A stretch of 64,000 nt of DNA. Source: Amycolatopsis nigrescens CSC17Ta-90 (lineage in GTDB: Bacteria; Actinomycetota; Actinomycetes; Mycobacteriales; Pseudonocardiaceae). Location of the stretch: NCBI RefSeq assembly GCF_000384315.1, contig NZ_ARVW01000001.1, positions 7,919,001 through 7,983,000 on the forward strand. Reading direction: 5' to 3'. Below are positions 12,848-43,898 of this stretch, piece by piece (position 1 is the first letter of the stretch; each line of letters begins with the position of its first letter). A program made the position numbers and the translations under genes. The notes beneath the pieces were generated by a model that saw nothing but the letters and a program-made list of their open reading frames with translations, made no database searches and had not been told where the DNA came from.

Positions 12848-12848
12848 G

Positions 12849-23583: not shown

Positions 23584-23623
23584 TACTTCAAGAGTCGGGG
23601 CCATGGTTTCGAAAGGGGAACAG

Positions 23624-24421
23624 ATGTCCAGGGACATCGGAGCGGTGGTCGACTCCGTGGTCGACACGGGCACGACCGGATCGCTGGGCGGCCCGCTCCG
23701 GAAAGCGCTCGCGGTGCTGGAGGTGCTGTCGGAGGCGTCCGGGCCGTTGACGCTGTCCGAGCTGTCGCAGCAGGTGAGCCTGCCGAAATCGAGCCTGCAC
23801 CGGATGATGCGGGTGCTGACGGATCTCCGGCTCGCCGTCCGGACCGAGTCGAAGTCCTACGAACTCGGGGACTACCTGTTCCAGCTGGCCTCCAGCCGCG
23901 GACTGGCCAGGGTGCAGAGCGTCAGCTACGCGATCATGCCGTTCCTGCTCGACCTGTTCCGACTCACCCGCAGGGTGGTCAGCGTGGGGGTGCTTTCCGG
24001 GATGGAGGTCCAGCACGCCGGAACCCTCTACGGCCAGGAGCACAGCAGGTTCGCGATGGCACTGACCCAGCCCGTCCCGGCGCAGACTTCGGCGGCTGGC
24101 AAGGTCTTGCTCGCGAAGAGCGCGCGGCACGCGATGGACCTCTGCGGCACCGTGCCGGTCGAGTCGCAGCTGACCATCGCCAGGGCGGACCGGATGAAGC
24201 GCGAGTTCGACCTGATCCAGCGGACCGGGCTGTCCTATGCGAAAAGTACCCATATTCCCGGCTTCGTCGAGGTCGCGGCTCCGGTCTACTTCGGAAACGT
24301 GCACCCGGTGGCCGCGGTCGTGGTGGGTGGCACGGTGAACCAGCTGGACTTCCGCAGCGTTGGGCGGGTCCTGCTGGAGACGGTCGGCTGCATCGAGGTG
24401 AAACTGGCCGGTGCCTGCTGA
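23624..24421 (+). CDS. IclR-family transcriptional regulator
   Basis: The protein has 265 residues from the ATG at 23624, which follows GAAAGGGG; an upstream ATG at 23603 has no such site. The N-terminal winged HTH is LRKALAVLEVLSEASGPLTLSELSQQVSLPKSSLHRMMRVLTDL. The C-terminal IclR effector domain is about 95-255 and includes PVPAQTSAAGKVLLA. It converges on the first gene of the biosynthetic cluster 13 bp away and is a candidate regulator of it or of the polyol operon (inference). Confidence 0.9.
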   Translation: MSRDIGAVVDSVVDTGTTGSLGGPLRKALAVLEVLSEASGPLTLSELSQQVSLPKSSLHRMMRVLTDLRLAVRTESKSYELGDYLFQLASSRGLARVQSVSYAIMPFLLDLFRLTRRVVSVGVLSGMEVQHAGTLYGQEHSRFAMALTQPVPAQTSAAGKVLLAKSARHAMDLCGTVPVESQLTIARADRMKREFDLIQRTGLSYAKSTHIPGFVEVAAPVYFGNVHPVAAVVVGGTVNQLDFRSVGRVLLETVGCIEVKLAGAC

Positions 24422-24434
24422 CGACCGGGCGTGC

Positions 24435-25460
24435 TCAGAACCGCCTGCCGGTGATGAACGCGGCGACCTCCAGGAACTCGTTTCGCGTGTCCTCCTCGAT
24501 TTCCGCGGTGGCAAGGCATTCTTCCGCGGCGGCGATCTGGCGGGCGGCCTCGTCGTGCGCCCAGTCCCGTCCGCCCGCGTGTTCCACCAGGTCCGCGACC
24601 CGCTGCACCTCCGGCTCGCTCAGCGGCTGAGACCGCAGGTAGAGCGCGGAAAGTTCGTCGGCGTGCCGGGTGTTCAGCGCTGCCACCACGGGCAGCGACT
24701 TCTTGCCGACCCGCAGGTCAGCGCCGGCCTGCTTCCCGGTGCGTTCCGGGTCGCCCCAGATGCCCAGCAGGTCGTCCACCAGTTGGAAGGCGAGCCCGAC
24801 GTGCTCACCGAAGTCGTGCAGCCGGCCGACCAGAGCAGGATCCGCCCCGACCAGCTCGGCGCCGAGCGAACAGGCGCACGCGAGCAGGGCGCCGGTCTTG
24901 TTGCCCGCCATCTCCAGGCACTCGGCGAGGGTGACGTCGTGGCGCCGTTCGAAGCTGACATCGGCGGCCTGGCCGCTGATCATCCGCTGGGTGGCCGACA
25001 TCAGCGACGCGGCGGCCGGGCGGGCGCCAGTGCCGTTCGCGTTGAGCAGCAGCGCCGCCGCGGCGGTCAGCAGCGCGTCACCGCCGAGGATCGCGTTGGG
25101 CACCCCGAACAGCGTCCACGCGGTGGGACGGCTCCGGCGTGCCGTGTCACCGTCCATGATGTCGTCGTGCAGCAGCGAGAAGTTGTGCACGAGTTCGATC
25201 GCCACCGCGGCCGGCACGCAATCGGCGGGCGGGCTGCCCGCGGCCTGCGCGGAGAGCAGGACCAGCGCGGGCCGGAGGAGCTTGCCGCCCCAGGCGTCGG
25301 TCGGCCTGCCATCGGCGTCCGCCCACCCGTGGTGGTACTGGGCGACCCGCCCCATTTCCGGGCACAGGTAGTGCTGCACGGCCTCGCGCAGGGCGGGCCC
25401 GACCATCGTCATCCCGGTGTCGAGGGCGACCGGCACCCTCCTGGTCGATGCGGTGGTCAT
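24435..25460 (-). CDS. Polyprenyl diphosphate synthase (canonical; GGPP/FPP synthase type)
   Basis: The protein has 341 residues from the ATG at 25460. All elements of an isoprenyl chain-elongating enzyme are present: the IPP-binding GGKLLRP (58-64), the first Asp-rich motif DDIMD (99-103) followed by RR, GKKSLPVV, and the second motif VDDLLGIWGD. In that motif the fifth position is Gly with an Asp four residues on, as in several actinobacterial members. Phe at position -5 from the first motif is compatible with a C15-C20 product. It is the last gene of the four-gene minus-strand arm of the cluster and should provide the allylic diphosphate. Confidence 0.9.
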   Translation of the reverse strand: MTTASTRRVPVALDTGMTMVGPALREAVQHYLCPEMGRVAQYHHGWADADGRPTDAWGGKLLRPALVLLSAQAAGSPPADCVPAAVAIELVHNFSLLHDDIMDGDTARRSRPTAWTLFGVPNAILGGDALLTAAAALLLNANGTGARPAAASLMSATQRMISGQAADVSFERRHDVTLAECLEMAGNKTGALLACACSLGAELVGADPALVGRLHDFGEHVGLAFQLVDDLLGIWGDPERTGKQAGADLRVGKKSLPVVAALNTRHADELSALYLRSQPLSEPEVQRVADLVEHAGGRDWAHDEAARQIAAAEECLATAEIEEDTRNEFLEVAAFITGRRF

Positions 25461-25542
25461 CACGCCACCGCCGCGTCGGTGGTGCGGAGAACTGCTGCTG
25501 TGCGTCGCATGGTGTCGAACCCTTCGCTGTCTGGTGAGCGGG

Positions 25543-26931
25543 TCATGGGGTGGGCAGGTCGGCCGGCGTCGGAACCGGCGAACGCAGCAGCGATCGCCGG
25601 AGAACCTGAGGGGAGGTGAGCAGACTGTGCGGCGGGGCAAGGAGGAAGAGGACGTCCCGGAAGGCGCGGCACACCACCGGATCACCCGGTACCCGTTCGC
25701 GTACGCGCTCGAGGTACCAGTTGAGGAACTCGTTGACGGGGCCGGTGCGGACCGCGTTGCCGGCGGCTCCTGGCATCGGGCTGTCCGCTCCGGTGGCGAC
25801 GTCCCAGGCGCCACGGGAGGAGCGCAGGACCGCTCGTTGCAGGCTGTGTGCCGAAGGCGCGTGCCGGGTGCGGGCTAGTGCCCGGCCCAGCGCCACCGCG
25901 TTCAGGGCCGCGACGGACAAGCCCTGTCCGTACACCGGGTTGAGGGCGCACAACGCGTCCCCGACGACGAGGAGCCCGCTGCGGGTGTGCCCGGCGCGGT
26001 CGCGGTCGTAGCGGCGGCGCCGGTTCGAGGTGTGCCGGTACCCGACGGGACGGCCGGCCGGACTCGCTTTGCTGAGCCACTTGTGCGGGGCGTCGTGCGG
26101 AAGTCCGCCGGCGAAGTCGACGAAACCCGCCAGCTCGGTGGGCGGCGCCTGTCCGCGCGGCCCGGACAGGGTGACCATGCAGCGGTCGTTCTCGACCGGC
26201 AGGATGATCGCACCGAAGGGCTGCGCGGCGTCGGGGACGATGTAGAAACCCTTGACCTCATCGGCCGGTCCGGTGTTGTCGGCGTGGAAAACACAGGTGG
26301 CGTAAGCCCGCCCGGTCTCCAGTACCTCCTCGTCGACCGCGGCCGCGCCGAGTTCGGTCAGCCATTCGGGCGTGCGGCTGCTCCGGCCGGTGGCGTCCAC
26401 CACCAGGTCGGCCAGCAGGTTCCGGGGTGCCCGGTCGCCGGCTCCCCGGCCGCGGGTACGCACCCCGATGATGTGCTCGGGCCTGCCGAGCAGAGCCGTC
26501 ACCTCGGTCGAGGTCAGCACCTCGATCCGCGGATCGGCCAGGACGCGCCGGCGAAGGACGTACTCCAGCAGCGGCCGCGACGCGGTCATCACCGGAGCGG
26601 ACGGATTGTCGCGTGAGACCCACTGCGCCGCCTGCCACACACCGAGATCCGCCGGGACGGAAAGGCAGGGCCCACCCGCCTCCCGCAGTTCGCCTGGCAG
26701 TCCGGGCAGGAGTTCGCTCAACGCGTCCAGACCACTGGTCAGCAGCACGTGGGTGTGCCGGGATTGGGGAACGCCCATCCGGGGCTCGGGGCCGCCTTCG
26801 TAGTGGTCGCGTTCCAATACCGTCACCCGCTCGGCATGGCGGGAAAGCACGTGAGCCGCAAGCAGTCCCGCCACACTGCCGCCCAGCACGACTACTTGCC
26901 CTAACGATGGATCGGGGGACAGTGCGCGCAT
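25543..26931 (-). CDS. FAD-dependent monooxygenase/epoxidase (PaxM/XiaO-like)
   Basis: The protein has 462 residues from the ATG at 26931, preceded by GAGAGGGCGAG. The N-terminal dinucleotide-binding motif is VVVLGGSVAGLLAAHVL (13-29). The FAD-binding GD motif VVGDALCALNPVYGQGLSVAALNA is of the para-hydroxybenzoate hydroxylase fold, and DATGRSS is also seen. Within an indole-terpenoid context this family epoxidises the terminal double bond of the prenyl chain to trigger cyclisation, as PaxM and XiaO do. The assignment rests on fold plus neighbours (two polyprenyl-synthase-like genes and a Pyr4-type cyclase). Confidence 0.82.
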   Translation of the reverse strand: MRALSPDPSLGQVVVLGGSVAGLLAAHVLSRHAERVTVLERDHYEGGPEPRMGVPQSRHTHVLLTSGLDALSELLPGLPGELREAGGPCLSVPADLGVWQAAQWVSRDNPSAPVMTASRPLLEYVLRRRVLADPRIEVLTSTEVTALLGRPEHIIGVRTRGRGAGDRAPRNLLADLVVDATGRSSRTPEWLTELGAAAVDEEVLETGRAYATCVFHADNTGPADEVKGFYIVPDAAQPFGAIILPVENDRCMVTLSGPRGQAPPTELAGFVDFAGGLPHDAPHKWLSKASPAGRPVGYRHTSNRRRRYDRDRAGHTRSGLLVVGDALCALNPVYGQGLSVAALNAVALGRALARTRHAPSAHSLQRAVLRSSRGAWDVATGADSPMPGAAGNAVRTGPVNEFLNWYLERVRERVPGDPVVCRAFRDVLFLLAPPHSLLTSPQVLRRSLLRSPVPTPADLPTP

Positions 26932-27011
26932 TTCTCGCCCTCTCAGAATCTTTGCGGGACACCCGCACCCGATCGATGGGGGCATGCGCAAAAAGCCTCG
27001 CATGCCCCATC

Positions 27012-27608
27012 TCAGGAACGCGTCCGCGGCAGTGCGCCGACCGGGCAACCGGCGATTTCACCGGACGCCTTGCCGTTCAGCCGCCGTGCCAGATAGCGAA
27101 GACCGGAAGTCTCACCCGAGCCGGGCTGGTTGCCGATCATGTACTGGACCAGTTGCAGGTGCGTGCGCCGCCACCGTCGGACGGCATCGCGGAGCTCCGT
27201 CGCGGCGCTGTGCCCGATGTCCATCGCGGGGAGGCGCTCGGTCAGTTCGAACAACTCGTGGAACTGCGCGGACTGCATACCGCTCGCCGTGCCGAACAGA
27301 TCCCGGAAACGCAGGAAGTCCGCCGGGTCCAGGGTTTGCCGCAGCAGCGTCAGATGTCCTTCCAGCGCGTCGATCAGCCGGGTCGCCCGCTCGGCCCGGT
27401 ACCGGAAGCAGCGTGCACCGCACTGGTTCGCTTCGAGGTGACGGAGGTCGGTGAGGGCCTGCCCGAGCAGGATCTCGGAAGCCTGGTGCACCACGATGAA
27501 CAGCCGCTCGCTGTCGCACAGGTCCTCCTGCTCCGGCGGCGTGAGCGGATGTTGCAGCGCCAGCAGTTCCTTCAGGTGCAGGTATCTCGAATAGGTCATG
27601 GCGGTCAC
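27012..27608 (-). CDS. Short tryptophan-2,3-dioxygenase homologue with altered substrate site
   Basis: The protein has about 198 residues; the GTG at 27608 lies 8 nt after GAGGAGG, and an ATG at 27599 is also possible. TDO-family landmarks are present: N-terminal YSRYLHLKELLALQ, the catalytic-His motif VVHQASE (His41), FGTASGMQSAQF, and the probable haem-ligand His in WRRTHLQLVQYMIG followed by GSGETSGLRYL. It is much shorter than usual TDOs (about 280 or more residues). The Arg that binds the Trp carboxylate (QYR/QFR) is His here (QFH). It may cleave or oxidise an indole lacking an amino-acid carboxylate, such as a prenylindole (inference). Confidence 0.82.
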   Translation of the reverse strand: MTAMTYSRYLHLKELLALQHPLTPPEQEDLCDSERLFIVVHQASEILLGQALTDLRHLEANQCGARCFRYRAERATRLIDALEGHLTLLRQTLDPADFLRFRDLFGTASGMQSAQFHELFELTERLPAMDIGHSAATELRDAVRRWRRTHLQLVQYMIGNQPGSGETSGLRYLARRLNGKASGEIAGCPVGALPRTRS

Positions 27609-27638
27609 AAGAGCCACCTCCTCGGGTGCGTCTTCCCG

Positions 27639-28628
27639 CTACACCAGGCGGCCCGGCACGGTGAGTTCGCTGAGCGCGTTCCGGTGCTCGGTGGGCGGGA
27701 GCGCTTCCAGGGCCCGCCCTGCCAATCGCGCGTAGAGATGCGACATTTCCCGAGCGGACTGAACCGCTCCGAAAGCGTGCACGAGTTCGGCCATGGACTC
27801 GTGCCGTTCTTCGGCCGGCAGATCGAGGTCGGCCAGCAGGCGTTCGATCAGCCTTTGCTGATCGCGGGGTGCGCGGCGATGCGCGAGCAGCACGGGCAGT
27901 GTCGGCCGGCCGTTGCGAATGTCGGAAATGTTCGGCTTACCGGCCTGGGTGCCGTCATAGGCCATCAGATCGTCGCGAATCTGATAGCCGATGCCCAGCA
28001 GATTGCTGTAATGTTCGAGCGCTTCGATCGAACCGTCGTCGGCCCCGCTGAGGGTGGCACCCAGACCGCAGGCCATCCAGAGCAGTGCGCCGCTCTTGTC
28101 CCTGATCATGTCCAGATAGGTCTCGGTGGAGCAGATGCTGCGGCCCATCCGGATCTCCTGGACGGCCGCATTGCCGATGCGTAAACCGGTCTGCGACAAC
28201 ACGGTCAGCCCCCTGGCGACCCGCGCGGCTGGCACACCCGCGTCCTGGCATTCGGCCAGTGCGGCGAAACCGTGGAAGAACAGCCCGTCGCCGCCGACGA
28301 TCGCCGTCGGCGCCCCGAAAGTCGTCTGCGCGGCCGGTTTGGCCCGCCGCTGCGGGTCGCTGTCGATGATGTCGTCGTGCATCATCGCGCCCACCTGAAT
28401 GCATTCCACCGCCAGTGCGGCCGGCAGCACTGGCGCTATTTCACCGCCCACCGCCAAACTGGACCGGATAAGCAGCCAGGGGCCCATCATCTTGCCGAAA
28501 GGTACCAATCCGTAACGCACTATCTCGTCGAGTCCGGAGACATCGTTCGGCCAGCGGCATTCAACCTCGGCGCGGACGAGAGCGGCTATCTCGGGATCGG
28601 CAACCTGCGGCACATCGATCTCCGTCAT
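27639..28628 (-). CDS. Polyprenyl-synthase-fold prenyltransferase, probably for an aromatic acceptor (PaxC/XiaM-like role)
   Basis: The protein has 329 residues from the leaderless ATG at 28628. The allylic site is intact (DDIID at 85-89, RR after it, second motif RDDLMAYD). The IPP-binding GGKxxRP is degraded to FGKMMGPW, losing the Arg. Gly80 and Ala81 at positions -5 and -4 of the first motif make a roomy chain pocket. This suggests it does not condense IPP but moves a prenyl group onto another acceptor, as fungal PaxC-type enzymes do with indole-3-glycerol phosphate. It heads the minus-strand operon with the TDO homologue, epoxidase and polyprenyl synthase. Confidence 0.82.
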   Translation of the reverse strand: MTEIDVPQVADPEIAALVRAEVECRWPNDVSGLDEIVRYGLVPFGKMMGPWLLIRSSLAVGGEIAPVLPAALAVECIQVGAMMHDDIIDSDPQRRAKPAAQTTFGAPTAIVGGDGLFFHGFAALAECQDAGVPAARVARGLTVLSQTGLRIGNAAVQEIRMGRSICSTETYLDMIRDKSGALLWMACGLGATLSGADDGSIEALEHYSNLLGIGYQIRDDLMAYDGTQAGKPNISDIRNGRPTLPVLLAHRRAPRDQQRLIERLLADLDLPAEERHESMAELVHAFGAVQSAREMSHLYARLAGRALEALPPTEHRNALSELTVPGRLV

Positions 28629-28635
28629 ACGGTCG

Positions 28636-28664
28636 ACTTTAGGTCCGCGGAACCGCGTTGTCGG
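28636..28664 (-). promoter_or_regulatory. Leaderless promoter of the cluster's minus-strand arm
   Basis: Read on the minus strand, CCGACA (28664-28659), a 17-bp spacer and TAAAGT (28641-28636) are followed by 7 nt and the ATG at 28628. Transcription should begin at or next to the start codon. The 176-bp intergenic region also serves the divergent MFS gene. Confidence 0.65.
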
Positions 28665-28804
28665 CAGAGAAGGAGCACACCGGCCCAAAGGGGAACACCG
28701 GGCGGACCGTTCGGCCCGTGCGGACATTTTCGCGCTATCCGGCGTTCTTCGCCGAATGTTAGCTTCCTTTCGCGGATGAGCCATCGGTCGGACCCGAGGT
28801 CCCG

Positions 28805-30367
28805 ATGGCCACTCAGCTCGAACCTGATGGCCCTGAGGTGAGCGATTATGTACGGAGAGCCGAATCGTCGGCGCGGAGCCTGCGGATGACCGAAACGCGG
28901 CCGGCGCGTTCCGAACGGGCCATCGTCGTCGTGGTGGCCGTCGCGGCCGGAGTGGCCGCGATGACCCAGACCCTGGTCGTGCCCCTGCTGGGGGAGCTGC
29001 CGAGACTGCTCGGCGCGGACACGGCCGACACTTCGTGGGCGGTGACCGCGGCGCTGCTGGGCGGCGCGGTCACCAGCCCTGTCATCGGCAGGCTGGGGGA
29101 CCTCTACGGCAAGCGGCGGCTGCTGCTGATCGTGCTCGGGTTGCTGAGCGCGGGTTCGGTGCTCTGCGCGGTTGCCGATTCGCTGCTCCCGATGATCGTC
29201 GGGCGCGCGTTGCAGGGCGTTGGCATGGGAATCGTCCCGCTCGGCATCAGCTTGCTGCGGGATGTTCTTTCCCCGCAACGGGTCGGCGCGTCGATCGCGC
29301 TGACGTCCTCGGTACTGGGGGTGGGCGCGGCACTGGGTCTGCCGTTCGCCGCGATGAGCGCCCAGTTCGGCGACTGGCACCTGCTGTTCTGGGAGATCGC
29401 TGCGGTGACCGTGCTGATCGGCGGGCTGGCGGCCTGGCTGGTGCCCAAGGCGCCGGGGCTGGCTCGTGGCCGCTTCGACCTGATCGGTGCGCTCGGCCTG
29501 ACCAGTGGCCTGACCGCGTTGCTGCTGGCCATCTCCCACGGCGGTGAATGGGGCTGGTCCAGCGTGACCACCTTGGCGCTCTTCGCCGGCTCGGCGGCGT
29601 TGCTCGCGGGCTGGGGCGCATGGGAGCTGCGCGTGACCGATCCGCTGATCGATCTCAGCACGGCCGCGCGGCGCCCGGTGCTGCTCGCGAACATCGCCTC
29701 GGTCGTGGTCGGCTTCGCGATGTACGCGCAGACGTTGATGGTGCCGCAGCTGCTTCAGCTTCCGGTCGCGACCGGGCACGGCCTCGGCCAAACGATGTTG
29801 CAGGCGGGGTTGTGGATGGTGCCCGCCGGGGTGGCGATGATGAGCGCGTCACCGGTGGGTGCCCGGCTTTCGGCGGCCCGTGGCCCCAAGGTGTCGCTGA
29901 TGCTGGGCACGGTGTTGATCGGGCTCGGCTATGTGGCCTGCCTGGTCTGGATGGATTCCACCGGGGGACTCGTCTTCGGCACGGTGGTGACCAACGCGGG
30001 TGTCGGCTTCGCCTACGGCGCGCTGCCGGCGCTGATCATGGGTGCCGTGGCGCCATCGGAAACCGGGGCCGCCAACGGGTTCAACACCCTGATGAGGTCC
30101 ATCGGGTCCTCGATGGCCGGCGCGGTGATCGGTGTCATCTTCGCCGAACTGAGCGCGCCGATGGGCGTGACGACCGTTCCGCTGCGGGGTGCTTTCGTGC
30201 TCGCAGCGGTGGCCGGCATGGTCAGCTCGCTCGTCGCGCTGGTGGTGAGCGGCCTGATCCCGGTCCGCAAACGATCCACTGTGGACGATTTTCCGGTGAA
30301 ACGCGTGTTGCGCGCACCCGTCGTCGAGGCGCAGGACAGTCCCGTTGCTCCCAGGACAGAAAGGTAG
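28805..30367 (+). CDS. MFS drug/metabolite exporter (DHA2/EmrB-like)
   Basis: The 520-residue membrane protein has about 14 predicted helices. The MFS motif A is GRLGDLYGKRRLLL after helix 2, and motif-C-like glycines (SVLGVGAALGLPFAAM) are present. The ATG at 28805 follows CCGAGG; a later ATG at 28886 would remove only a charged tail. It opens the plus-strand arm of the cluster, divergent from the prenyltransferase gene, and its stop is 4 nt before the P450 start. It likely exports the cluster product and gives self-protection (inference). Confidence 0.88.
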   Translation: MATQLEPDGPEVSDYVRRAESSARSLRMTETRPARSERAIVVVVAVAAGVAAMTQTLVVPLLGELPRLLGADTADTSWAVTAALLGGAVTSPVIGRLGDLYGKRRLLLIVLGLLSAGSVLCAVADSLLPMIVGRALQGVGMGIVPLGISLLRDVLSPQRVGASIALTSSVLGVGAALGLPFAAMSAQFGDWHLLFWEIAAVTVLIGGLAAWLVPKAPGLARGRFDLIGALGLTSGLTALLLAISHGGEWGWSSVTTLALFAGSAALLAGWGAWELRVTDPLIDLSTAARRPVLLANIASVVVGFAMYAQTLMVPQLLQLPVATGHGLGQTMLQAGLWMVPAGVAMMSASPVGARLSAARGPKVSLMLGTVLIGLGYVACLVWMDSTGGLVFGTVVTNAGVGFAYGALPALIMGAVAPSETGAANGFNTLMRSIGSSMAGAVIGVIFAELSAPMGVTTVPLRGAFVLAAVAGMVSSLVALVVSGLIPVRKRSTVDDFPVKRVLRAPVVEAQDSPVAPRTER

Positions 30368-30371
30368 TTCG

Positions 30372-31565
30372 ATGCCCGAACCCAAGGCACTTCCCATCGC
30401 CGCGCGGTCCGTGGGGTGTCCCTTCACCCCCGCCACCGAGCTCTACGACATGCAGAAGCAGGAGGAGCTGCCCCGGGTCAAGATCCCCAGCCCGCTGCTC
30501 GGCGAGTTCGACGCGGTGACCGTCACGCGCTACGAGGACGCCAAGAACGTGCTGGGCGACCCCCGGCTGCAGATGGGCTTCGTCTTCGATCCCGACGCGC
30601 CGCGGACCATGCTGAACCAGCCGGGCAACCTGCTGAACTACAACGGCGCCGACCATTCCCGGCTGCGGCGGATGCTCACCGCGTCCTTCACGGTCAAGCG
30701 GGTCCGTTCGTTGCGGCCGATGATCGAGGGCATCGTGGCGGCCCAGCTGGACGCGTTGGAGGAGGAGGGTCCCGGTGCGGACCTGGTGCAGGTGTTCAGC
30801 ACCCCGATCCCGACCCACGTGATCTGCGAGCTGCTGGGCGTGCCCTATGCCGACCGGGCGGACTTCCAGCGCCGCGCCAAGGTCGGGCTGGACGTCAACA
30901 CGACCCGTGAGGTGCAGATCCAGAACCTGGCCGATATGGACGCCTACATGTCCAAGCTGGTGGCGGCCCACCGGCAGAGCCCCGGCGACAATCTGCTGGG
31001 TGGCGTGGTGCGCGACTTCGGCGCCGAGCTGACCGACGACGAGCTGGTGGGCATCGGCAACATGCTGCTGATCGCCGGGCACGAGACGACCGCCAGCATG
31101 CTGTCGGTCGGTACCGCGCTGCTGCTCCAGCATCCGGACCAGCTCGCGCTGGTGCGCGACGATCCCTCGGCGACCGACGGCGCGATCGAGGAGCTGCTGC
31201 GCTACTGCGCCCCGGCCACCATCATGCCGCGACAGGCGGCCACCGATCTGTGCGTGCGGGACCAGGAGATCAAGGAGGGCGAGCGGGTGGTGGTGTCCAT
31301 CCTGGCCGCCAACCGCGATCTCGGGGCGACCGACCAGGACCTGGACACGCTGGACGTGCGACGGCCGCCGCAGGCGCATGTGACCTTCGGCTTCGGTGCC
31401 CACCAGTGTCTCGGCCAGCAGCTGGCGCGGATGGAGTTGCGCGTCGCGCTGCCGGCGCTGTTCAACAGGTTCCCCACGCTGAAGCTGGGCGTCCCGCAGG
31501 AAGAAGTCGACTACCGGACCACCGCGCTCGTCTTCGGCGTGCACCGGTTGCCGGTCACCTGGTGA
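30372..31565 (+). CDS. Cytochrome P450
   Basis: This is a 397-residue bacterial class I P450. The I-helix oxygen motif AGHETTA is at 235-241, the K-helix ExxR is E274-R277 (EELLR), and the haem loop FGFGAHQCLG has the axial Cys346. It is CYP105/107-like in length and motifs. It is followed 20 bp later by its own ferredoxin gene, a common P450-Fd pair. It probably oxidises the cyclised terpenoid scaffold. The frame is open upstream, but the ATG at 30372 has AAGGTAG and fits family N-termini. Confidence 0.95.
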   Translation: MPEPKALPIAARSVGCPFTPATELYDMQKQEELPRVKIPSPLLGEFDAVTVTRYEDAKNVLGDPRLQMGFVFDPDAPRTMLNQPGNLLNYNGADHSRLRRMLTASFTVKRVRSLRPMIEGIVAAQLDALEEEGPGADLVQVFSTPIPTHVICELLGVPYADRADFQRRAKVGLDVNTTREVQIQNLADMDAYMSKLVAAHRQSPGDNLLGGVVRDFGAELTDDELVGIGNMLLIAGHETTASMLSVGTALLLQHPDQLALVRDDPSATDGAIEELLRYCAPATIMPRQAATDLCVRDQEIKEGERVVVSILAANRDLGATDQDLDTLDVRRPPQAHVTFGFGAHQCLGQQLARMELRVALPALFNRFPTLKLGVPQEEVDYRTTALVFGVHRLPVTW

Positions 31566-31585
31566 CTCTGGAGGAGGAAGCGACG

Positions 31586-31804
31586 ATGAGTTTGAACATC
31601 GAAATCGAGGAACCCAAGTGCATCGCCGCGGGGCACTGCGTCGCTGCCGCGCCGGAGGTCTTCGACCAGCGCGACGACGACGGAGTGGTGATCCTGCTCG
31701 ACGGGACTCCGCCGGAGCACGAGCACGAGCGCGTCCGTGAGGCCGCCCTGCTCTGCCCGGCCGCCGCGATCATCCTCCGGGAAGGCGACCGGACCCATGC
31801 CTGA
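31586..31804 (+). CDS. [3Fe-4S]-type ferredoxin
   Basis: This is a 72-residue acidic ferredoxin of the P450-partner kind. It has the ligand pattern CIAAGHC near residues 11-17 and a third Cys in LLCPAAAI. The ATG at 31586 has GGAGGAAG upstream. It passes electrons to the P450 just upstream; the ferredoxin reductase is not in the window. Its 3' end overlaps the next gene by 8 bp. Confidence 0.92.
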   Translation: MSLNIEIEEPKCIAAGHCVAAAPEVFDQRDDDGVVILLDGTPPEHEHERVREAALLCPAAAIILREGDRTHA

Positions 31805-33581
31805 CCTGGACGTGCCGGTGCTGGTCGTCGGCGGTGGTGGCTGCGGGCTCGCCACCTCGGTCTTCCTGTCCGATCTGGGGGTGGACCACCTGCTCGTCGA
31901 GCGGCGCGAATCGACCTCCGTGCTGCCGAGGGCGCACTACCTGAACCAGCGCACCATGGAGATCTTCCGGCAGCACGGGATCGCCGACGAGGTGTACCGG
32001 GGCAGCGCTCCGCTGGCGAACATGGGGGAGGTGGTCTGGCGTACTTCGCTGGCCGGCGACGGTTTCCTGGACGGGCGGGACCTGCACCGGATGGACGCGT
32101 TCGGTGGCGGCGGCACGGCCGCGCCCTACGCGGCCGACAGCCCGTGCCCGTCGACGAACTTCCCGCAGCACCGGCTCGAACCGCTGCTGCGCCGGCACGC
32201 GGAGGAACGGGCGCCCGGTCGCGTGCTGTTCCACCACGTGCTCGAGGAGTTCACCCAGGACGAGACCGGGGTGACCGCGCTGGTGACCAACCGGTCGACC
32301 GGAGAGACCAGCACCGTGCGCGCCCGGTACCTCGTCGGCGCCGACGGGGGACGGAGCATCGGGAAGGCGCTCGGCGTGACGATGGCGGGGGAAGAGGGTG
32401 GCGCCTTCCACGTGATCTCCGTGCACTTCAGCGCGGACCTGTCCCGGTGGTGGCCCGGCGATTCGGTGCTGATCACGAACTTCGTCAGCCCGGACGGCGG
32501 CCTGATCTCCCGGTACGGGATGGTCGCGCTGGGGCCGACCTGGGGGCTGTCCTGCACCGAATGGGCACTGCACTTCCATCTGCCGCCGGGAACCGAGCTG
32601 GACCTCGGCGACGACGCGATGATGGCCAGGGTCCGGGAACTGCTGAAGCTGCCGAACCTGGAGCTCGAACTGCACCAGGTGAGTCACTACTGGCCGGAGG
32701 CCGTCATCGCGGACACCTTCCGGGACGGCCGGGTCTTCCTCGCCGGGGACGCCGCGCACCGCCAGCCACCCGCCACCGGCCTCGGTCTGAACTCGGCGAT
32801 CCAGGACGCGCACAACCTGGCGTGGAAGCTCGCGGCCGTGCTCGGCGGGCAGGCCGGCGATCCGCTGCTGGAGTCCTACCAGGCCGAACGGCTGCCGATC
32901 GCGCACCGGAACGTCAGCTGGTCGATGTACACCTTCCGCAACCACGCGGTGGCGCACGCCGGCCTCGGGCTCTTTCCGGGCCAGCCGCCGGAGGCCACCC
33001 GGGCCAACTTCCGCGCCCTGTTCTCCGACACGCCGATGGGGGAGACCCGTCGGGTCAGGGCGAAGGAGGTGTTCGCGACCCAGCGGGTTGAATACCAGGC
33101 GCACGACATCGAGATCGGCTTCTCCTACCAGGACGGTGCCGTGCTGCCGGACGGATCGGAACCGCCGCCGCGGGACCCGATGGGCTACCTGTACCACCCG
33201 GTGACCAGGCCGGGACACCGGCTGCCGCACGTATGGCTGACGCGGGACGGAGAACGCCTTTCCTCCCACGACCTCGTCGGCAGGCACGGCGGTTTCGTGC
33301 TGATCACCGGGGCGGTGGAGGACAGCTGGGCGGTCGCGGCGAAGCAGGTCGTGGACACCTTCGGCGTGGCGCTGACCGTCGTGCCCATCGGCACGGATCC
33401 CGCCGGATACCAGGACGCCGAGGGCGGCTGGTCGGCGGTGAAGGAGGTCGGCGACGGCGGCGCGGTCCTGGTGCGCCCGGACAACCACGTCGCCTGGCGC
33501 AGCTTCACCGGCGGCGCACAGGCCGGCGAGCTTAACGCGGCCTTTCAGCACATCCTCGGCGTCAAGACAACTGGGAGCTGA
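31797..33581 (+). CDS. FAD-dependent aromatic hydroxylase (PheA/TfdB/PgaE-type)
   Basis: The 594-residue class A flavoprotein monooxygenase has GGGGCGLATS at 12-21 for the FAD ADP part and the DG motif VGADGGRSIGKALG. The GD motif is VFLAGDAAHRQPPATGLGLNSAIQDAHNLAWKL. A C-terminal thioredoxin-like domain (about 450-594) is typical of phenol and polyketide aromatic hydroxylases. It uses NAD(P)H and oxygen to hydroxylate an electron-rich ring, here plausibly the indole or a cleavage product. The start lies inside the ferredoxin gene, an 8-bp overlap. Confidence 0.9.
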   Translation: MPDLDVPVLVVGGGGCGLATSVFLSDLGVDHLLVERRESTSVLPRAHYLNQRTMEIFRQHGIADEVYRGSAPLANMGEVVWRTSLAGDGFLDGRDLHRMDAFGGGGTAAPYAADSPCPSTNFPQHRLEPLLRRHAEERAPGRVLFHHVLEEFTQDETGVTALVTNRSTGETSTVRARYLVGADGGRSIGKALGVTMAGEEGGAFHVISVHFSADLSRWWPGDSVLITNFVSPDGGLISRYGMVALGPTWGLSCTEWALHFHLPPGTELDLGDDAMMARVRELLKLPNLELELHQVSHYWPEAVIADTFRDGRVFLAGDAAHRQPPATGLGLNSAIQDAHNLAWKLAAVLGGQAGDPLLESYQAERLPIAHRNVSWSMYTFRNHAVAHAGLGLFPGQPPEATRANFRALFSDTPMGETRRVRAKEVFATQRVEYQAHDIEIGFSYQDGAVLPDGSEPPPRDPMGYLYHPVTRPGHRLPHVWLTRDGERLSSHDLVGRHGGFVLITGAVEDSWAVAAKQVVDTFGVALTVVPIGTDPAGYQDAEGGWSAVKEVGDGGAVLVRPDNHVAWRSFTGGAQAGELNAAFQHILGVKTTGS

Positions 33582-33584
33582 CCC

Positions 33585-33974
33585 ATGTCCGCTGTCGAAC
33601 ACGAGCAGGTCGTGCGCGAGTTCCTCGCCGCGATGGGGCCGACGCCCGTCGACATCAGGTCCGCTGTGGACCGCTACCTGACCGACGACTGCGTGTGGGA
33701 GAACCCCGGTTCGCCGGTGTGCCGGGGCAAGCCGGAGATCTTCAAGCTGATGCCGGCCGACTTCGCGCGACTGGAGGTCCGATTCCGCCACCTCGCGACC
33801 GTGGGCGACACCGTACTGGCCGAGCGGGTGGAGAGCATGCTCCGCACGGACGGAACCCCGATCGCGCTGAACCTGAAGGTGATGGCCGCCTTCGAACTGC
33901 GTGGCGGCCGGATCTGCGCCTGGCGGGACTACTTCGACATCACGAAGCTCATCTCCGATCCCGGGGAATGGTGA
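33585..33974 (+). CDS. SnoaL/limonene-epoxide-hydrolase-like protein
   Basis: The 129-residue NTF2-fold protein has an N-terminal helix (EHEQVVREFLAAMG), a DDCVWENPG segment and the end motif RGGRICAWRDYFD. That motif is shared by limonene-1,2-epoxide hydrolases and SnoaL cyclases. It starts 4 nt after the FAD hydroxylase stop. In a pathway that makes epoxides it could open an epoxide or guide a cyclisation (inference). Confidence 0.82.
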   Translation: MSAVEHEQVVREFLAAMGPTPVDIRSAVDRYLTDDCVWENPGSPVCRGKPEIFKLMPADFARLEVRFRHLATVGDTVLAERVESMLRTDGTPIALNLKVMAAFELRGGRICAWRDYFDITKLISDPGEW

Positions 33975-33979
33975 GCGCG

Positions 33980-34498
33980 ATGAGCCGACCCCGGCAGCTG
34001 ACGGAGTTCCCCGAGCCCACTGAGTCCACGGAGGAGCACGTGCTACGGCACGCCTTCGGGCAGTTCCCGTCCGGGGTGACCGCGGTCGCCGCGCTGGTGG
34101 ACGGTGCCGCACTCGGTATCGCGGTTAGTTCCTTCGCCCCCGTTTCGCTGGAGCCGCCGCTCGTCTCGATCTGCGTGATGGAGCACTCCAGGACCTGGCG
34201 GCGGCTGCGCACCGCACACCGGATCGGGGTGAGCGTGCTCGGCTCCGGCCACGCCGAACTGGCGAGGCGTCTCGCGGCGGCCACCGAGGACCGGTTCACC
34301 ACGGTGGAATGGCGCATCGGGCGGCACGGGGCGATCCGGGTCGTCGGCGCGCCGGCGTGGCTGGAGTGCTCGATCGAACAGGAGATCCCGGCCGGCGACC
34401 ACATTCTGGCCCTGCTGCGGATCCGGCACGCCGAGACCTACGCCGGGATCGGCCCGCTGGTGTTCCACGCGAGCGGTTTCCACCGCCTCGCCTCTTGA
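33980..34498 (+). CDS. Flavin reductase (FMN/FAD:NAD(P)H) component
   Basis: The protein has 172 residues from the ATG at 33980; in-frame ATG 33968 and GTG 33971 overlap the previous stop and are alternatives. It is a flavin-reductase-like split-barrel with FGQFPSGVTAVAALVDG, SSFAPVSLEPPLVSICV and FHRL at the end. It supplies reduced flavin to two-component monooxygenases. The next gene is exactly such an acyl-CoA-dehydrogenase-fold oxygenase, parallel to the XiaF/flavin-reductase arrangement of the xiamycin pathway. Confidence 0.88.
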   Translation: MSRPRQLTEFPEPTESTEEHVLRHAFGQFPSGVTAVAALVDGAALGIAVSSFAPVSLEPPLVSICVMEHSRTWRRLRTAHRIGVSVLGSGHAELARRLAAATEDRFTTVEWRIGRHGAIRVVGAPAWLECSIEQEIPAGDHILALLRIRHAETYAGIGPLVFHASGFHRLAS

Positions 34499-34514
34499 GC
34501 AGGAAGGCAGTCAG

Positions 34515-35699
34515 ATGACGAACGTGCGCACGGACCTGCGGGTCGAGCTGGTGGAGCGGGTCCATTCGATCGGCCCGATCCTGGCGGACGGGGTCGCGCA
34601 GGGCGACCGCGAACGCCGGTTGCCGGACAAGACGGTGCGGGCCATCGACGAGTCGCAGGTGAGCCGGCTCTGGACGGCGCGCGAGTACGGCGGGTTCGAG
34701 ACCGGTGTGCGGACCTTGAGCGAGGTCACCAAGACCCTTTCCCACTACTGCCCGTCCACCTCCTGGGTGGTGAACAACATCAACGGGTCGAACCTGCTCG
34801 CCGCGCGGTTCCCGCAGGCCGCGCGGGACGAGGTGTTCGGGGAGAACCCCGGCGCCAAGCTCGCCTCGATCTTCGTGGCGGCCGGTAAGGCGGTCCGCAC
34901 CGGCGGCGGTTACCTGCTGACCGGGAAATGGCCGTACGCCTCGGGAATCCTGCACGACGATTGGGCGATCCTGAGCGCGAAAGAGGTCGATGCCGACGGT
35001 GAGGCCGTTCGCGCGATCTCGGTGCTGGTGCCCGTCGCCGAGCTGACGGTGGAGGACACCTGGTTCACCGTGGGCATGCGCGCCACCGGAAGCCGCACCG
35101 CGGTAGCCGAGGGGGTGTTCGTGCCCGAGCACCGCGTGCTGCCGGTCGAGCTGCAACTGGGGCGGCAGAACGCCACCGATGTCACGCTGGCGCCGTTGTT
35201 CCGGTCGCCCGCGGTGGCGGCGATGGCGGTGATCTGCGCCTCCGTGGTGATCGGCATCGGCCAGGCCGCACGCGCCTTCGTCGTGGACCGGGCGCCGGGG
35301 CGGGGGATCGCGCCGACGGTCTACACCAGCCAGCCGAACTCGCAGACCTTCGTGTCCGCACTGGGCAAGACCGCGCTGTCCATCGACGCCGCCGAGATGC
35401 ACGCGAGCCGGTCCGCGGACGTGATCGACGCGGCTGCCGAGGACGCCGTCGCGCTCCCGGACGCCGAGCTCCGCCGGATCCGCGGGGACGTCGGGCAGGC
35501 GGTGAACCTGGTGACCATCGCGCTCGACGAGTTGATGTGGGCGCACGGGGCGGCCGCCTTCGCCGAGTCGAACCCGCTGCAGCAGTTCTGGCGGGACGCC
35601 AACACCGCCGCCCGGCACGCGATGCTCAACGTGCATGTCGGCCGCGAGCTCTACGGCGGGGCGTTCTTCGGCCTCGACCAGATCGTGCCCAGCCTCTGA
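34515..35699 (+). CDS. Acyl-CoA-dehydrogenase-fold flavin-dependent monooxygenase (XiaF/HsaA-like)
   Basis: The 394-residue group D flavin monooxygenase has an N-terminal helical domain, a central strand domain (GGGYLLTGKWPYASGILHDDWAILS; TGSRTAVAEGVFVPEHRVLPV) and a C-terminal four-helix domain ending WRDANTAARHAMLNVHVGRELYGG. The W(R)D..TA..H pattern is that of HsaA and XiaF oxygenases, and the catalytic Glu of true acyl-CoA dehydrogenases is absent. With reduced flavin from the upstream reductase it would hydroxylate the indole or aromatic ring. XiaF does this in indolosesquiterpene formation. Confidence 0.87.
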   Translation: MTNVRTDLRVELVERVHSIGPILADGVAQGDRERRLPDKTVRAIDESQVSRLWTAREYGGFETGVRTLSEVTKTLSHYCPSTSWVVNNINGSNLLAARFPQAARDEVFGENPGAKLASIFVAAGKAVRTGGGYLLTGKWPYASGILHDDWAILSAKEVDADGEAVRAISVLVPVAELTVEDTWFTVGMRATGSRTAVAEGVFVPEHRVLPVELQLGRQNATDVTLAPLFRSPAVAAMAVICASVVIGIGQAARAFVVDRAPGRGIAPTVYTSQPNSQTFVSALGKTALSIDAAEMHASRSADVIDAAAEDAVALPDAELRRIRGDVGQAVNLVTIALDELMWAHGAAAFAESNPLQQFWRDANTAARHAMLNVHVGRELYGGAFFGLDQIVPSL

Positions 35700-35728
35700 C
35701 CTCCACCCCAGCACGGTAAGGACTTCCC

Positions 35729-36472
35729 ATGGATTGGCTGCCACCGTTCCTCATCCCGATGTCCGAGGTCGCACCGGTGACGGTGGGGCCGGCTGACGTG
35801 CCGCGCGTGCTGTTCTGGATGGTTGCCGGGCCGACCGTCCTCGGCTGGATGGTGACCTACCTGCTGGCCATCCGGCAGGCCATCGTGGACGGACGCGTGG
35901 GCGTGCCCGCCTACATGGTGGCGGTGAACTTCGCCTGGGAGTTCAGCCTCACCTTCGTCCTGGAGCAGACGCCGACCCAACGGGGGATCAACTTCGTCTG
36001 GGTGATCATCAACGTCTTCCTGCTGTACCAGGTGTTCCGGTACGGGCGGAACGACTATCCCGCGCTGTCGCCGCGGACCTTCAGGTGGTCCATCGTCGGG
36101 GTGCTGGTGTGGGCCTCGCTGATCGTGATGGCGGGCGCCAACGAGTTCCACGACCGCGACGGGATGTACATCGGCATGATCATCAACCTGCCGCTCAGCG
36201 CGGCGTTCATCCTGATGCTCAAGCGGCGCGGATCCTCGGTGGGGCAGTCCATGTACATCGCCACCGCGAAGTTCGTCGGATCCTTCTTCGCCGGGCTCAC
36301 CGGGTTCCTGGTGTACCCGGCCAGGGTGCTCTTCCTGGTGCTGGTGCCCACCATGGTCGTGCTGGACCTGGTCTACCTGGTGCTGCTGCACCGGAAGATG
36401 CGTGCCGAGGGGCGCTCGCCGTGGGCGTTCCGGGCGCCCGCGACGTTCGCGATGGCCGCGGACAAGTCCTGA
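35729..36472 (+). CDS. Pyr4/PaxB/XiaH-family integral-membrane terpene cyclase
   Basis: The 247-residue protein has about seven hydrophobic helices. The family signature NFAWEF places Glu71 in the helix position of the catalytic Glu63 of Pyr4. Asp213 in the last helix (VVLDLVYLVLL) matches Pyr4 Asp218. These non-canonical cyclases protonate or open a terminal epoxide of a prenylated aromatic substrate. It ends the plus-strand arm of the cluster. GGTAAGGA precedes the ATG. The Glu/Asp pair, size and context together make the call; a generic membrane protein is the alternative. Confidence 0.85.
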   Translation: MDWLPPFLIPMSEVAPVTVGPADVPRVLFWMVAGPTVLGWMVTYLLAIRQAIVDGRVGVPAYMVAVNFAWEFSLTFVLEQTPTQRGINFVWVIINVFLLYQVFRYGRNDYPALSPRTFRWSIVGVLVWASLIVMAGANEFHDRDGMYIGMIINLPLSAAFILMLKRRGSSVGQSMYIATAKFVGSFFAGLTGFLVYPARVLFLVLVPTMVVLDLVYLVLLHRKMRAEGRSPWAFRAPATFAMAADKS

Positions 36473-36497
36473 AAGGGCGCGTTATGAAAGGGCACAG

Positions 36498-37121
36498 TCA
36501 GATGACGCCGGTGCGCAACGCGTACGCCACCGCGTGCGGCCGGTTGCGGAGCTTGAAGCGGCTGGTGACCCCGAAAATGGTCCGCTTCACGACCCGCTCC
36601 GAGAAGCCGAGTTTGACCGCGATCTCGGCGGTGTCCAGGCCGTCCGACATCAGCCGCAGGATGTCGATCTCCCGCGCGGTCATGCCGGAGGTGTGCAGGC
36701 CGTTCGGTGACAGTATTTCGCGCTGGATCCGTTCGACCTGCTTGAGCAGTTCGCCGAGCATCTTCGATGGCAACACGGCGCCGCCGCCGGCGGCGGTCCG
36801 CACCGCGCTCTCGATCCGGTCGCCGGTGACCCCGGCCCGCGGCAGTACCGCGACCACGTTGCACTCGACGGCGGTGAGCAGCTCGGTGCGGCTGACCTCG
36901 CAGGCGATCAGCACCACCGGCGCGCCCAGGGTCGCCTTCACCTTCCGCAGCGCGGACGCCACCTCCACGGTGATCCGCTCGGCGACGAGCACCACCACGT
37001 CCACCGGCGGGTGATGCTCGTCCGGCAGGACCTCGATGTCCGGCAGGGCGTCGAGGCGGCTGCTGATCGCCTCGCGGGTCAACGGATCCACCGCACGGAT
37101 GAGCACTCTTAGCACGTCCAC
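36498..37121 (-). CDS. LuxR-family regulator with a degenerate receiver-like domain
   Basis: The protein has 207 residues from the GTG at 37121 with GGAG upstream. The N-terminal 120 residues resemble a response-regulator receiver (VLIRAVDPLTREAISSRL; DVVVLVAER). The phospho-acceptor Asp position is Val/Ala, so phosphorylation is unlikely. The C-terminal LuxR HTH is MTAREIDILRLMSDGLDTAEIAVKLGFSERVVKRTIFGV. It converges on the terpene cyclase gene 25 bp away and may be the pathway regulator of the cluster (inference). Confidence 0.85.
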   Translation of the reverse strand: MDVLRVLIRAVDPLTREAISSRLDALPDIEVLPDEHHPPVDVVVLVAERITVEVASALRKVKATLGAPVVLIACEVSRTELLTAVECNVVAVLPRAGVTGDRIESAVRTAAGGGAVLPSKMLGELLKQVERIQREILSPNGLHTSGMTAREIDILRLMSDGLDTAEIAVKLGFSERVVKRTIFGVTSRFKLRNRPHAVAYALRTGVI

Positions 37122-37130
37122 CGCAGTCTC

Positions 37131-38309
37131 CTAGCCCTGGTAGCTTTCCCCGAAACCGTGCACGCTTACTTCGGCGCTGCCGACGAGCGCGGTGTCGCCT
37201 GCTTCTTCGGCGATGCGCATGGCTTCTTCGATGAGGGTTTCCACGATCTGGTGTTCGGGGACGGTTTTGATGACCTCGCCCTTGACGAAGATCTGGCCTT
37301 TGCCGTTGCCGGAGGCCACACCCAGGTCGGCTTCGCGGGCTTCACCGGGCCCGTTGACCACGCAGCCCATCACCGCGACCCGCAGCGGCACTTCCATGCC
37401 CTGCAAACCGGCGGTGACCTCATCAGCCAGCTTGTACACATCCACCTGCGCCCGCCCACACGAGGGGCAGGACACGATCTCCAGCTTGCGCTGCTTGAGG
37501 TTGAGCGACTGCAGGATCTGGATCCCGACCTTGACCTCTTCCACCGGCGGCGCGGACAACGACACCCGAATGGTGTCCCCGATCCCCTGCCGCAACAACG
37601 CACCGAACGCCACCGCCGACTTGATCGTGCCCTGAAACGCCGGACCCGCCTCGGTCACCCCCAGATGCAGCGGATAGTCACACTGCTCAGCCAACAACTC
37701 ATACGCCCGCACCATCACCACCGGGTCGTTGTGCTTCACCGAAATCTTCAAATCATGAAAATCGTGCTCGGCGAACAGCGACGCCTCCCACAACGCCGAC
37801 TCCGCCAACGCCTCCGGGGTCGCCTTACCGTGCTTGGCCAGCAACCGCTTGTCCAGCGACCCCGCGTTCACCCCGATCCGGATCGGCGTCCCATGATCCT
37901 TCGCCGCCTGCGCGATCTCCTTGACCTGGTCATCGAACTTACGGATGTTGCCCGGGTTCACCCGCACCGCCGCACACCCCGCCTCGATCGCGGCGAACAC
38001 GTACTTCGGCTGAAAATGAATATCCGCGATCACCGGGATCTGCGACTTCCGCGCGATCGCCGGCAACGCCTCCGCATCATCCGCACTCGGACACGCCACC
38101 CGCACGATGTCACAACCCGACGCCGTCAACTCCGCAATCTGCTGCAACGTCGCATTCACATCCGACGTCAACGTCGTCGTCATCGACTGCACCGACACCG
38201 GACTCTCACTACCCACCCCCACCGCACCAACCTGCAGCTGACGGGTCTTACGCCGCTCCGCAAGCACGGGCGGGGGCATGGTGGGGAGGCCGAGAGCGAC
38301 CTGGGTCAT
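37131..38309 (-). CDS. ispG: 4-hydroxy-3-methylbut-2-enyl-diphosphate synthase (GcpE)
   Basis: The 392-residue enzyme of the MEP pathway converts 2-C-methylerythritol 2,4-cyclodiphosphate to HMBPP with a [4Fe-4S] cluster. It shows [19 protein letters not shown] at the N-terminus, VRVNPGNI, and the cluster cysteines in SCPSCGR and [10 protein letters not shown]. The start overlaps the dxs stop (ATGA), so the two are coupled. The gene strongly prefers G-ending codons (GCG, GTG, TTG, CGG, GGG), unlike the nearby gene at 41216. A second, housekeeping copy is likely elsewhere in the genome (inference). Confidence 0.95.
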
Positions 38310-40114
38310 CGTGTGATCCCTTCCGGGGTGACTGGGCTCGGTGCCGTGGAGCTGTCGTGGAGCGCCAGCGCGGTTTCGGCGATGGACTCCGCGGTGAGGC
38401 CGTGCTCGGCGAGGATCGCCGATCGGCTGCCGTGGTCGAGGAAGCCACCGGGCAGCCCGAGGTTGTGCACCGGCGCCGGAACGCGGGCATCCGTGCAGGC
38501 CTGTGCCAGCGCCGCGCCCACGCCGCCGGTGCGCACCCCGTCCTCGACGGTGAGCACCAGGCGATGCCGGGAGGCGAGATGGACCAGGGTCGGGTTGACG
38601 GGCAGCAGCCAGCGCGGATCGACCACCGTCACTCCCACACCTTCATCGGAAAGCAGTTCGGCGGCCCGGATCGCGGTGCCGGCGAGCACGCCGGTGCTGA
38701 CGATCAGCACGTCGAGCGGAAGGGACCGGCTGCGGTAGAGGATGTCCAGCCCGTCCATGCGGCTGAGTGCGGTGATCTCCGGACCGGCGCCGGCCTTCGG
38801 GAACCGCAGCGCGGTGGGACCGTCCGTTGTGCACACCGCCTCGCCGAGCAGGGCGGCCAGCTGCTTGGTGTCGCGTGGGGACGCGACGCGCATGCCCGGC
38901 ACCGTGCCGAGCAGGGCGAGGTCCCACATGCCGTGGTGGCTTGGCCCGTCGGGACCGGTGATTCCCGCCCGGTCCAGCACGAAGGTGACCGGCAGGTGGT
39001 GCAGCGCCACGTCCATCATGACCTGGTCCACGGCGCGGTTGAGGAAGGTGGCGTACAGGCAGACCACCGGGTGCAGGCCGCCCATGGCCAGCCCGGCCGC
39101 GCTGGTGACCGCGTGCTGCTCGGCGATGCCAACGTCGAAAACGCGGTCCGGATATCGCTTGGCGAACGGGTGCAGACCGACCGGGCGCAACATCGCGGCG
39201 GTCAGCGCGACCACCTCCGGGTTGCTGGCGCCGATCTTCGTCAGCTCGTCGCCGAACGAGCTGGTCCAGCTGGGGGAGCCGGCGGTGCCCGGCTTGCCGG
39301 TGTCGGGATCGATGACCCCGATGCCGTGCATGCGGTCGGCTTCGTCGGTCTCGGCGTGGGGGTAGCCGCGCCCCTTCTCGGTGACGCAGTGCACGACCAC
39401 CGGCCGGTTCAGCCCGGCCGCCCGGCGGCACGCCTGCTCGACGGCGGCGACGTCATGCCCGTCCACCGGGCCGATATAGCCGAAACCCAGGTCCTCGAAC
39501 AGGTTCGAGCCGGGGTGGCGACCGTCTCGCAGCGCCGAAAGATGCGCGGCCACACCGCCGATGGTGGGGGCATACGAGCGGCCGTTGTCGTTGAGAGCGA
39601 TCACTACCTTGCCGTCACCGCGGCCGAGGTTGTTCATCGCCTCCCAGGCCATGCCGCCGGTCAGCGCGCCGTCGCCGATCACCGCGACCACCCGGCGGTG
39701 CTCCTGTCCGAGCAGCCGCTGTGCCTTCGCCAGACCGTCCGCATAGGACAGTGCGGTGGAAGCGTGCGAGTTCTCCACGTGGTCGTGCGGGGACTCCCGC
39801 CGCTGCGGATAGCCGGCCAGCCCGCCCGCCGCGCGCAACGTGTCGAAGGCGGCCTGCCTGCCGGTGAGGATCTTGTGCACATAGGACTGATGGCCGGTGT
39901 CGAACACGATCCGGTCGGCCGGCGAGTCGAACACCCGGTGCAGTGCGATGGTCAGCTCGACCACACCGAGGTTCGGGCCGAGGTGCCCGCCGGCGCGGCA
40001 GACCGTGTCGACCAGGAACTCCCTGATCTCGGCCGCGAGTGCGGGCAGCTGGTCCTGGTGCAACTCCTTGAGCCGCTGCGGGCTGGTGGTGCGACTGAGC
40101 AAAGTGGAGGTCAT
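38306..40114 (-). CDS. dxs: 1-deoxy-D-xylulose-5-phosphate synthase
   Basis: The 602-residue thiamine-diphosphate enzyme catalyses the first and flux-controlling MEP step. The start ATG at 40114 is supported by alignment of [26 protein letters not shown]. Signatures are [27 protein letters not shown], the ThDP motif [16 protein letters not shown] and the transketolase-like [15 protein letters not shown]. It lies 13 nt after the ispH stop and overlaps ispG. Next to the terpenoid cluster it probably boosts precursor supply. Confidence 0.96.
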
Positions 40115-40127
40115 ATCCTCATCCCGT

Positions 40128-43854: not shown

Positions 43855-43898
43855 CGGAACCTCCTCGGAGAAACCGGGGCTCCGCGCCACGTACGCAC

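Follow-up and report, generated by a model that had tools for sequence, protein, structure and literature searches.

The core of the fungal paxilline pathway, PaxG/C/M/B, comprises in succession a prenyl synthase, an indole prenyltransferase, an epoxidase and a Pyr4-like cyclase. Among Bacteria, the closest described system is the xia cluster of Streptomyces species, known for xiamycin A, indosespene and the dixiamycins. Xiamycin A is reported from S. olivaceus SCSIO T05 (PMC6835275), and a review (PMC10301674) credits S. olivaceus OUCLQ19-3 with dixiamycins and S. xinghaiensis with xiamycin analogues. A xia-like cluster in which a flavin reductase gene adjoins the xiaF orthologue has been described in Amycolatopsis nigrescens CSC17Ta-90 (PMC5481743). 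Here we analyze a stretch of 64,000 nucleotides from A. nigrescens CSC17Ta-90 (hereafter, the window; G+C content 66–74%; positions 7,919,001–7,983,000 of a 9.1 Mb genome assembled as one contig), in which two divergent operons form what we predict, with a probability of about 0.93, to be a xiamycin/oridamycin-type indolosesquiterpenoid cluster. The window likewise has a flavin reductase gene beside its xiaF orthologue; the published A. nigrescens cluster was compared by description only.

Gene content shared with xiamycin loci

As a stand-in for the xia cluster we used a locus of S. olivaceus (L023); the XiaF gene of this locus and crystallized XiaF share 99% identity. This locus shares 15 of the window's genes at 50–90% identity, namely those for the prenyltransferase, a tryptophan-2,3-dioxygenase (TDO)-like protein, the epoxidase, the farnesyl diphosphate (FPP) synthase, the cytochrome P450, the ferredoxin, the flavin adenine dinucleotide (FAD)-dependent monooxygenase (65% identity), the LEH-like protein, XiaF, the cyclase, LuxR, IspG, Dxs, IspH and IclR. 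The window cyclase is 71% identical to that of L023, whose gene adjoins the 99%-identical XiaF gene, and equally to an S. xinghaiensis cyclase (P0028). Compared with crystallized XiaF itself (PDB 5lvu), the window oxygenase matches over residues 6–394, with 74.5% identity over 388 aa.

Searching genome contigs with the cyclase alignment, we obtained 25 loci and looked for the window genes in them by tblastn. Where a count is out of fewer than 20 loci, it refers to those whose sequence reaches the gene, the rest being cut by a contig end or by the fetched flank; the counts out of 20 for the IclR and isoprenoid-precursor (IspG, Dxs, IspH) genes are those within the available sequence. As far as the flanks reach, the gene set recurs in 20 of the 25 loci (L009–L028, the close loci), far beyond chance. 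The cyclase and the XiaF-type oxygenase are found in 20/20, the LEH-like protein in 19/19, the FAD monooxygenase in 19/19 (one partial), and the P450 and ferredoxin in 18/18. Compared with the Streptomyces xia loci, the window has in addition a gene for a major facilitator superfamily (MFS) exporter and, within the cluster, one for a flavin reductase. The MFS gene recurs only in L009, L010, L011, L014 and L024, and a full-length flavin reductase homologue lies next to the cyclase in L009 and next to XiaF in L010.

An earlier note on this DNA had recognized an indole-terpenoid core of four activities (polyprenyl synthase, prenyltransferase, epoxidase and Pyr4-type cyclase) accompanied by a XiaF-like oxygenase. 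The core chemistry was rightly read, but the tailoring set, including the TDO homologue, had been called unrecognized, and the same set is present in L023 and, where covered, in the other close loci. The cluster belongs to the described xiamycin family, as a new copy.

Several points weigh against the predicted xiamycin/oridamycin-type product. It is a prediction from gene content, and likeness to XiaH/XiaE, XiaO, XiaM and XiaK was judged through the S. olivaceus stand-in; with most genes at roughly 50–75% identity, tailoring could also end differently. Unlike the Streptomyces loci, the window is arranged as two divergent operons with IclR at the opposite end. Moreover, genes of the methylerythritol phosphate (MEP) pathway (Dxs, IspG and IspH) are absent from the available sequence of L010, L014, L015 and L017, despite several kb of it past the cyclase, and L016 shows only a partial Dxs. 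The MEP genes are frequent, not constant, companions of the cluster.

Core enzymes and the predicted pathway

The first of the two polyprenyl synthases carries the motif HNFSLLHDDIMD, with F at position -5 of the first Asp-rich motif (DDIMD), a residue that by a chain-length rule marks FPP synthases. All 15 first-synthase sequences that could be read, the window's included, share this residue, and the enzyme is 56–70% identical to its counterparts in 14/14 close loci. At the motif level, the first synthase is of the FPP (C15) type. The second is 65–78% identical to homologues in 15/15 close loci (72% to that of L023). Its closest structures, PDB 9v4g–9v4j, are entitled prenyltransferase Ord1 and include the farnesyl analogue FSPP; ‘Ord’ probably refers to oridamycin, which by its name would place Ord1 in the oridamycin pathway, and the likeness is limited to this one enzyme, the only part that can be compared. 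The earlier suggestion that the second synthase has lost its isopentenyl diphosphate (IPP) site holds in part: it reads FGKMMGP where the first synthase has GGKxxRP, with Gly invariant in 14 sequences. By homology, the cluster encodes an indole farnesyltransferase of polyprenyl-synthase fold.

These two enzymes also bear on whether the locus is a bacterial cluster for a C20, paxilline-like indole diterpenoid, as the analogy with PaxG/C/M/B would imply. The same four enzyme classes occur in the fungal pathway, and its activities follow the same order as those predicted for the window's cluster. Unlike the paxilline core, however, the window has a C15-type synthase motif, followed by predicted XiaF-type carbazole formation. 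The PaxG (C20) analogy fails at the motif level in every first synthase read, the prenyltransferase is 74% identical to an enzyme crystallized with a farnesyl analogue, and the XiaF-type oxygenase and the entire L023 gene set likewise speak against a C20 product. A literature search for bacterial indole diterpenoid biosynthetic gene clusters gave no match. Given the similarity to Ord1 and a first-synthase motif of FPP type, a C15 indolosesquiterpenoid is expected, and we rejected the C20 alternative as highly improbable.

The epoxidase had been predicted to group apart from ordinary hydroxylases, and it does. Its nearest solved relatives in a PDB search are the polyether epoxidases Lsd18/LasC and MonCI; at E up to 0.001 only a halogenase, scoring 24 bits, is matched besides them. 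The protein is 66–73% identical to its counterparts in 14/14 close loci. The earlier reading also depended on Pyr4-type similarity in the protein encoded from 35729, which matches PF25129. A search with this cyclase found 57 proteins, its own included, and in 29 aligned sequences E71 (the glutamate of WEF) and D213 are invariant. A conserved Glu and Asp are named as the acid residues of Pyr4-like cyclases in PMC6173783; we mapped them to E71 and D213 by motif, without alignment to DmtA1. XiaH falls in one of the two largest bacterial groups of Pyr4-like cyclases (JACS 2026 paper). A PDB search with the cyclase profile (E up to 0.1) returned no solved homologue.

Homology, gene order, motifs and conservation were observed directly, and from the published Xia enzymes we infer all of the catalytic steps. 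Dxs, IspG and IspH would boost the supply of C5 units, from which the first synthase would form FPP, and the Ord1-type prenyltransferase would transfer the farnesyl group to C3 of an indole donor. This donor is indole-3-glycerol phosphate in the published xiamycin scheme. The FAD epoxidase would then oxidize the attached farnesyl chain to an epoxide, which the Pyr4-like cyclase would open, yielding a preindosespene-type decalin. The epoxidase, the P450 with its ferredoxin and the FAD monooxygenase all lie in one cluster. The P450 and ferredoxin would convert a methyl group to a carboxylate, and the XiaF-type two-component flavoenzyme would hydroxylate the indole and so trigger closure of the carbazole ring. 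N-hydroxylation or coupling of the product is a possible role of the FAD monooxygenase, and the MFS protein may serve in product export.

A short TDO-like protein conserved with the cluster

The TDO-like protein has 195 aa, compared with about 280–300 for bacterial TDO chains. It is predicted to have a TDO fold and keeps equivalents of the heme-ligand His, the distal His and the carboxylate-binding Arg; the position of Tyr113 in TDO is an invariant Phe, and alignments skip 76–89 middle residues of solved TDOs between two matched segments. Two longer TDO frames sit elsewhere in the genome. The gene is present in 16/16 close loci covering that part (L010, L012, L018 and L021 do not), and its match begins 16–60 bp after the prenyltransferase match in 16/16 sequences with both available. 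We also scanned 297 genomes of the family for TDO with a threshold of E 1e-20, scoring up to 10 candidates in each genome. The 12 carriers are exactly the 12 genomes with a complete cyclase of at least 68% identity; no TDO match was found in eight family genomes with cyclases at 32–40% identity, nor in one (G124) with only a cyclase fragment (residues 102–213). Given its presence in all 16 loci and in the same 12 genomes as the complete cyclase, we rejected the idea that the gene is strain-specific tailoring.

Tentatively, the protein might be a required, unrecognized indolosesquiterpenoid enzyme that acts on the indole donor or contributes to its supply. One possible role, which we consider less likely than not, is an undescribed oxidation of indole, its donor or an intermediate. 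The retained His/Arg/His equivalents, the spacing from the prenyltransferase match, and the restriction of the gene, among the family genomes, to those with this cyclase are consistent with such a step. It would, however, be common to known xiamycin clusters and no novelty of this strain, since S. olivaceus L023 has the gene too, and the published xiamycin pathway, in its available account, is complete without it. We consider it rather unlikely that the gene serves supply instead, lowering tryptophan so that feedback on anthranilate synthase is relieved and indole-3-glycerol phosphate accumulates for prenylation. The kept equivalent of the Arg that binds the tryptophan carboxylate in TDO would suit this role, as would the adjoining prenyltransferase gene and the use of indole-3-glycerol phosphate in the published scheme; the skipped middle residues and the two longer TDO frames in the genome argue against it.

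Literature on xiamycin biosynthesis stated no role for a TDO-like gene, within a scope that left out the XiaK paper and the original 2012 xia papers and so does not show absence from print. In the SCSIO naming, H is the cyclase and I the indole oxygenase, while titles cited in PMC10301674 make XiaK an N-hydroxylase and have XiaM form the carboxyl. The gene order of L023 is cyclase, XiaF, LEH, FAD monooxygenase, ferredoxin, P450, FPP synthase, epoxidase, TDO and prenyltransferase. XiaM is a P450, and XiaO the epoxidase. Mapped onto the letters H to Q, this order would make the TDO gene xiaP. Another laboratory's XiaP is a flavin reductase (PMC5481743), and in S. olivaceus a gene named xmcP was deleted to abolish xiamycins (PMC6835275). 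If its lettering follows the SCSIO xia order, xmcP could be the TDO-like gene.

Extent, neighboring genes and distribution

All named genes were confirmed by Pfam and NCBIfam scans, with family matches at or near the positions first given for them. Most passed a filter based on GC by codon position; the epoxidase, TDO homologue, second synthase, flavin reductase and ferredoxin failed, and were accepted because of their family matches and conservation. Several mechanically called open reading frames (ORFs) begin too far upstream. The called spans are 27012–27617(-) for the TDO homologue, 27639–28784(-) for the second synthase and 30345–31565(+) for the P450; residue 53 of the called prenyltransferase ORF pairs with residue 1 of PDB 9v4g, which sets the start at 28628.

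Table 1. Genes of the cluster and its recurring companions in the window.
Feature	Position	Strand	Evidence
IclR-family regulator	23603..24421	+	PF09339/PF01614; IclR gene, 51-67% identity, in 11/20 close loci
Farnesyl diphosphate synthase (first polyprenyl synthase)	24435..25460	-	PF00348 193.9 bits; start uncertain (ORF called from 25814)
FAD-dependent epoxidase, XiaO-type	25543..26931	-	Lsd18/LasC 224 bits, MonCI 203 bits (PDB); ORF called from 27048
Short tryptophan-2,3-dioxygenase-like predicted heme protein	27012..27599	-	195 aa from this start
Indole prenyltransferase, Ord1-type	27639..28628	-	74% identity to PDB 9v4g over 329 aa
MFS exporter (predicted)	28805..30367	+	PF07690 148.6 bits; in 5/20 close loci
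Cytochrome P450, XiaM position	30372..31565	+	PF00067 102.7 bits; 66-80% identity
Ferredoxin	31586..31804	+	PF13370 49.8 bits
FAD monooxygenase, XiaK position	31797..33581	+	PF01494 325.8 bits; ORF called from 31737
LEH/SnoaL-like protein	33585..33974	+	PF07858 68.3 bits
Flavin reductase, likely XiaF-type oxygenase partner	33968..34498	+	PF01613 113.8 bits; start 33968 or 33980
XiaF/XiaI-type indole hydroxylase (oxidative cyclization to carbazole, predicted)	34515..35699	+	PDB 5lvu XiaF 650 bits
Pyr4-like transmembrane terpene cyclase, XiaH/XiaE-type	35729..36472	+	PF25129 79.6 bits, cut-off 27
LuxR-type regulator	36498..37121	-	PF00196; 62-74% identity in 19/20 close loci
IspG (MEP pathway)	37131..38309	-	PF04551 477.8 bits; in 13/20 close loci
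Dxs (MEP pathway)	38306..40114	-	TIGR00204 567.6 bits; ORF called from 40243; in 13/20 close loci
IspH (MEP pathway)	40128..41126	-	PF02401 311.4 bits; in 11/20 close loci

The range of 24435–36472 first proposed for the cluster is too short. We set the boundaries at about 23603–41126 because LuxR, IspG, Dxs and IspH (36498–41126) and IclR (23603–24421) recur with the cluster, though not at every locus. Strong matches to IspH and to Dxs each fall at three loci of the genome, with one IspH and one Dxs gene inside the cluster. Upstream lie two AAA_16 plus LuxR (GerE) regulators of about 900–950 aa, at 7007–9847(+) and 20767–23469(+), and ORFs of similar size at 9965–12847 and 12789–15641.

On the other side, an acyl-CoA dehydrogenase-like protein at 41216–42349(-), between IspH and a methionyl-tRNA synthetase (MetRS), and this second MetRS at 42379–43890(-) were both rejected as cluster genes, since tblastn at E up to 1e-8 finds neither in any of the 25 loci. 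The MetRS is divergent (503 aa; the genome's other copy is at C1:4704580) and sporadic, occurring in 9/30 genomes, its own included. At four other places with such a MetRS (L038–L041, 3.5–18 kb each) there was no match to the cluster genes or to the acyl-CoA dehydrogenase. This MetRS may be a duplicate of the resistance type that has nothing to do with the cluster.

In the five remaining loci of the scan (L029–L033) the cyclase is distant or broken, and the gene set is missing. Cyclases at 38–51% identity occur in Amycolatopsis xylanica and three Streptomyces (L029, 3261–3965; L030, 10001–10726; L031, 10001–10741; L032, 10001–10597), with no XiaF or TDO match in the available flanks. L030 has an epoxidase at 40% identity, and L030–L032 carry IspH and polyprenyl synthase genes; these four loci are probably other Pyr4-like pathways. 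Actinopolyspora righensis (L033, 4799–5137) has only a cyclase fragment, beside IspG, Dxs, IspH, IclR and LuxR, and looks like a decayed cluster.

The window's host is not a Streptomyces, and belongs to the same family as Goodfellowiella. Among the 297 family genomes, 21 have a cyclase match, 12 of them a complete close cyclase, and only the window's own genome belongs to its genus. The cluster appears sporadic in the genus, with horizontal gain likely, and the window extends the xiamycin-type clusters to a genus that has no other cyclase carrier among the family genomes sampled.

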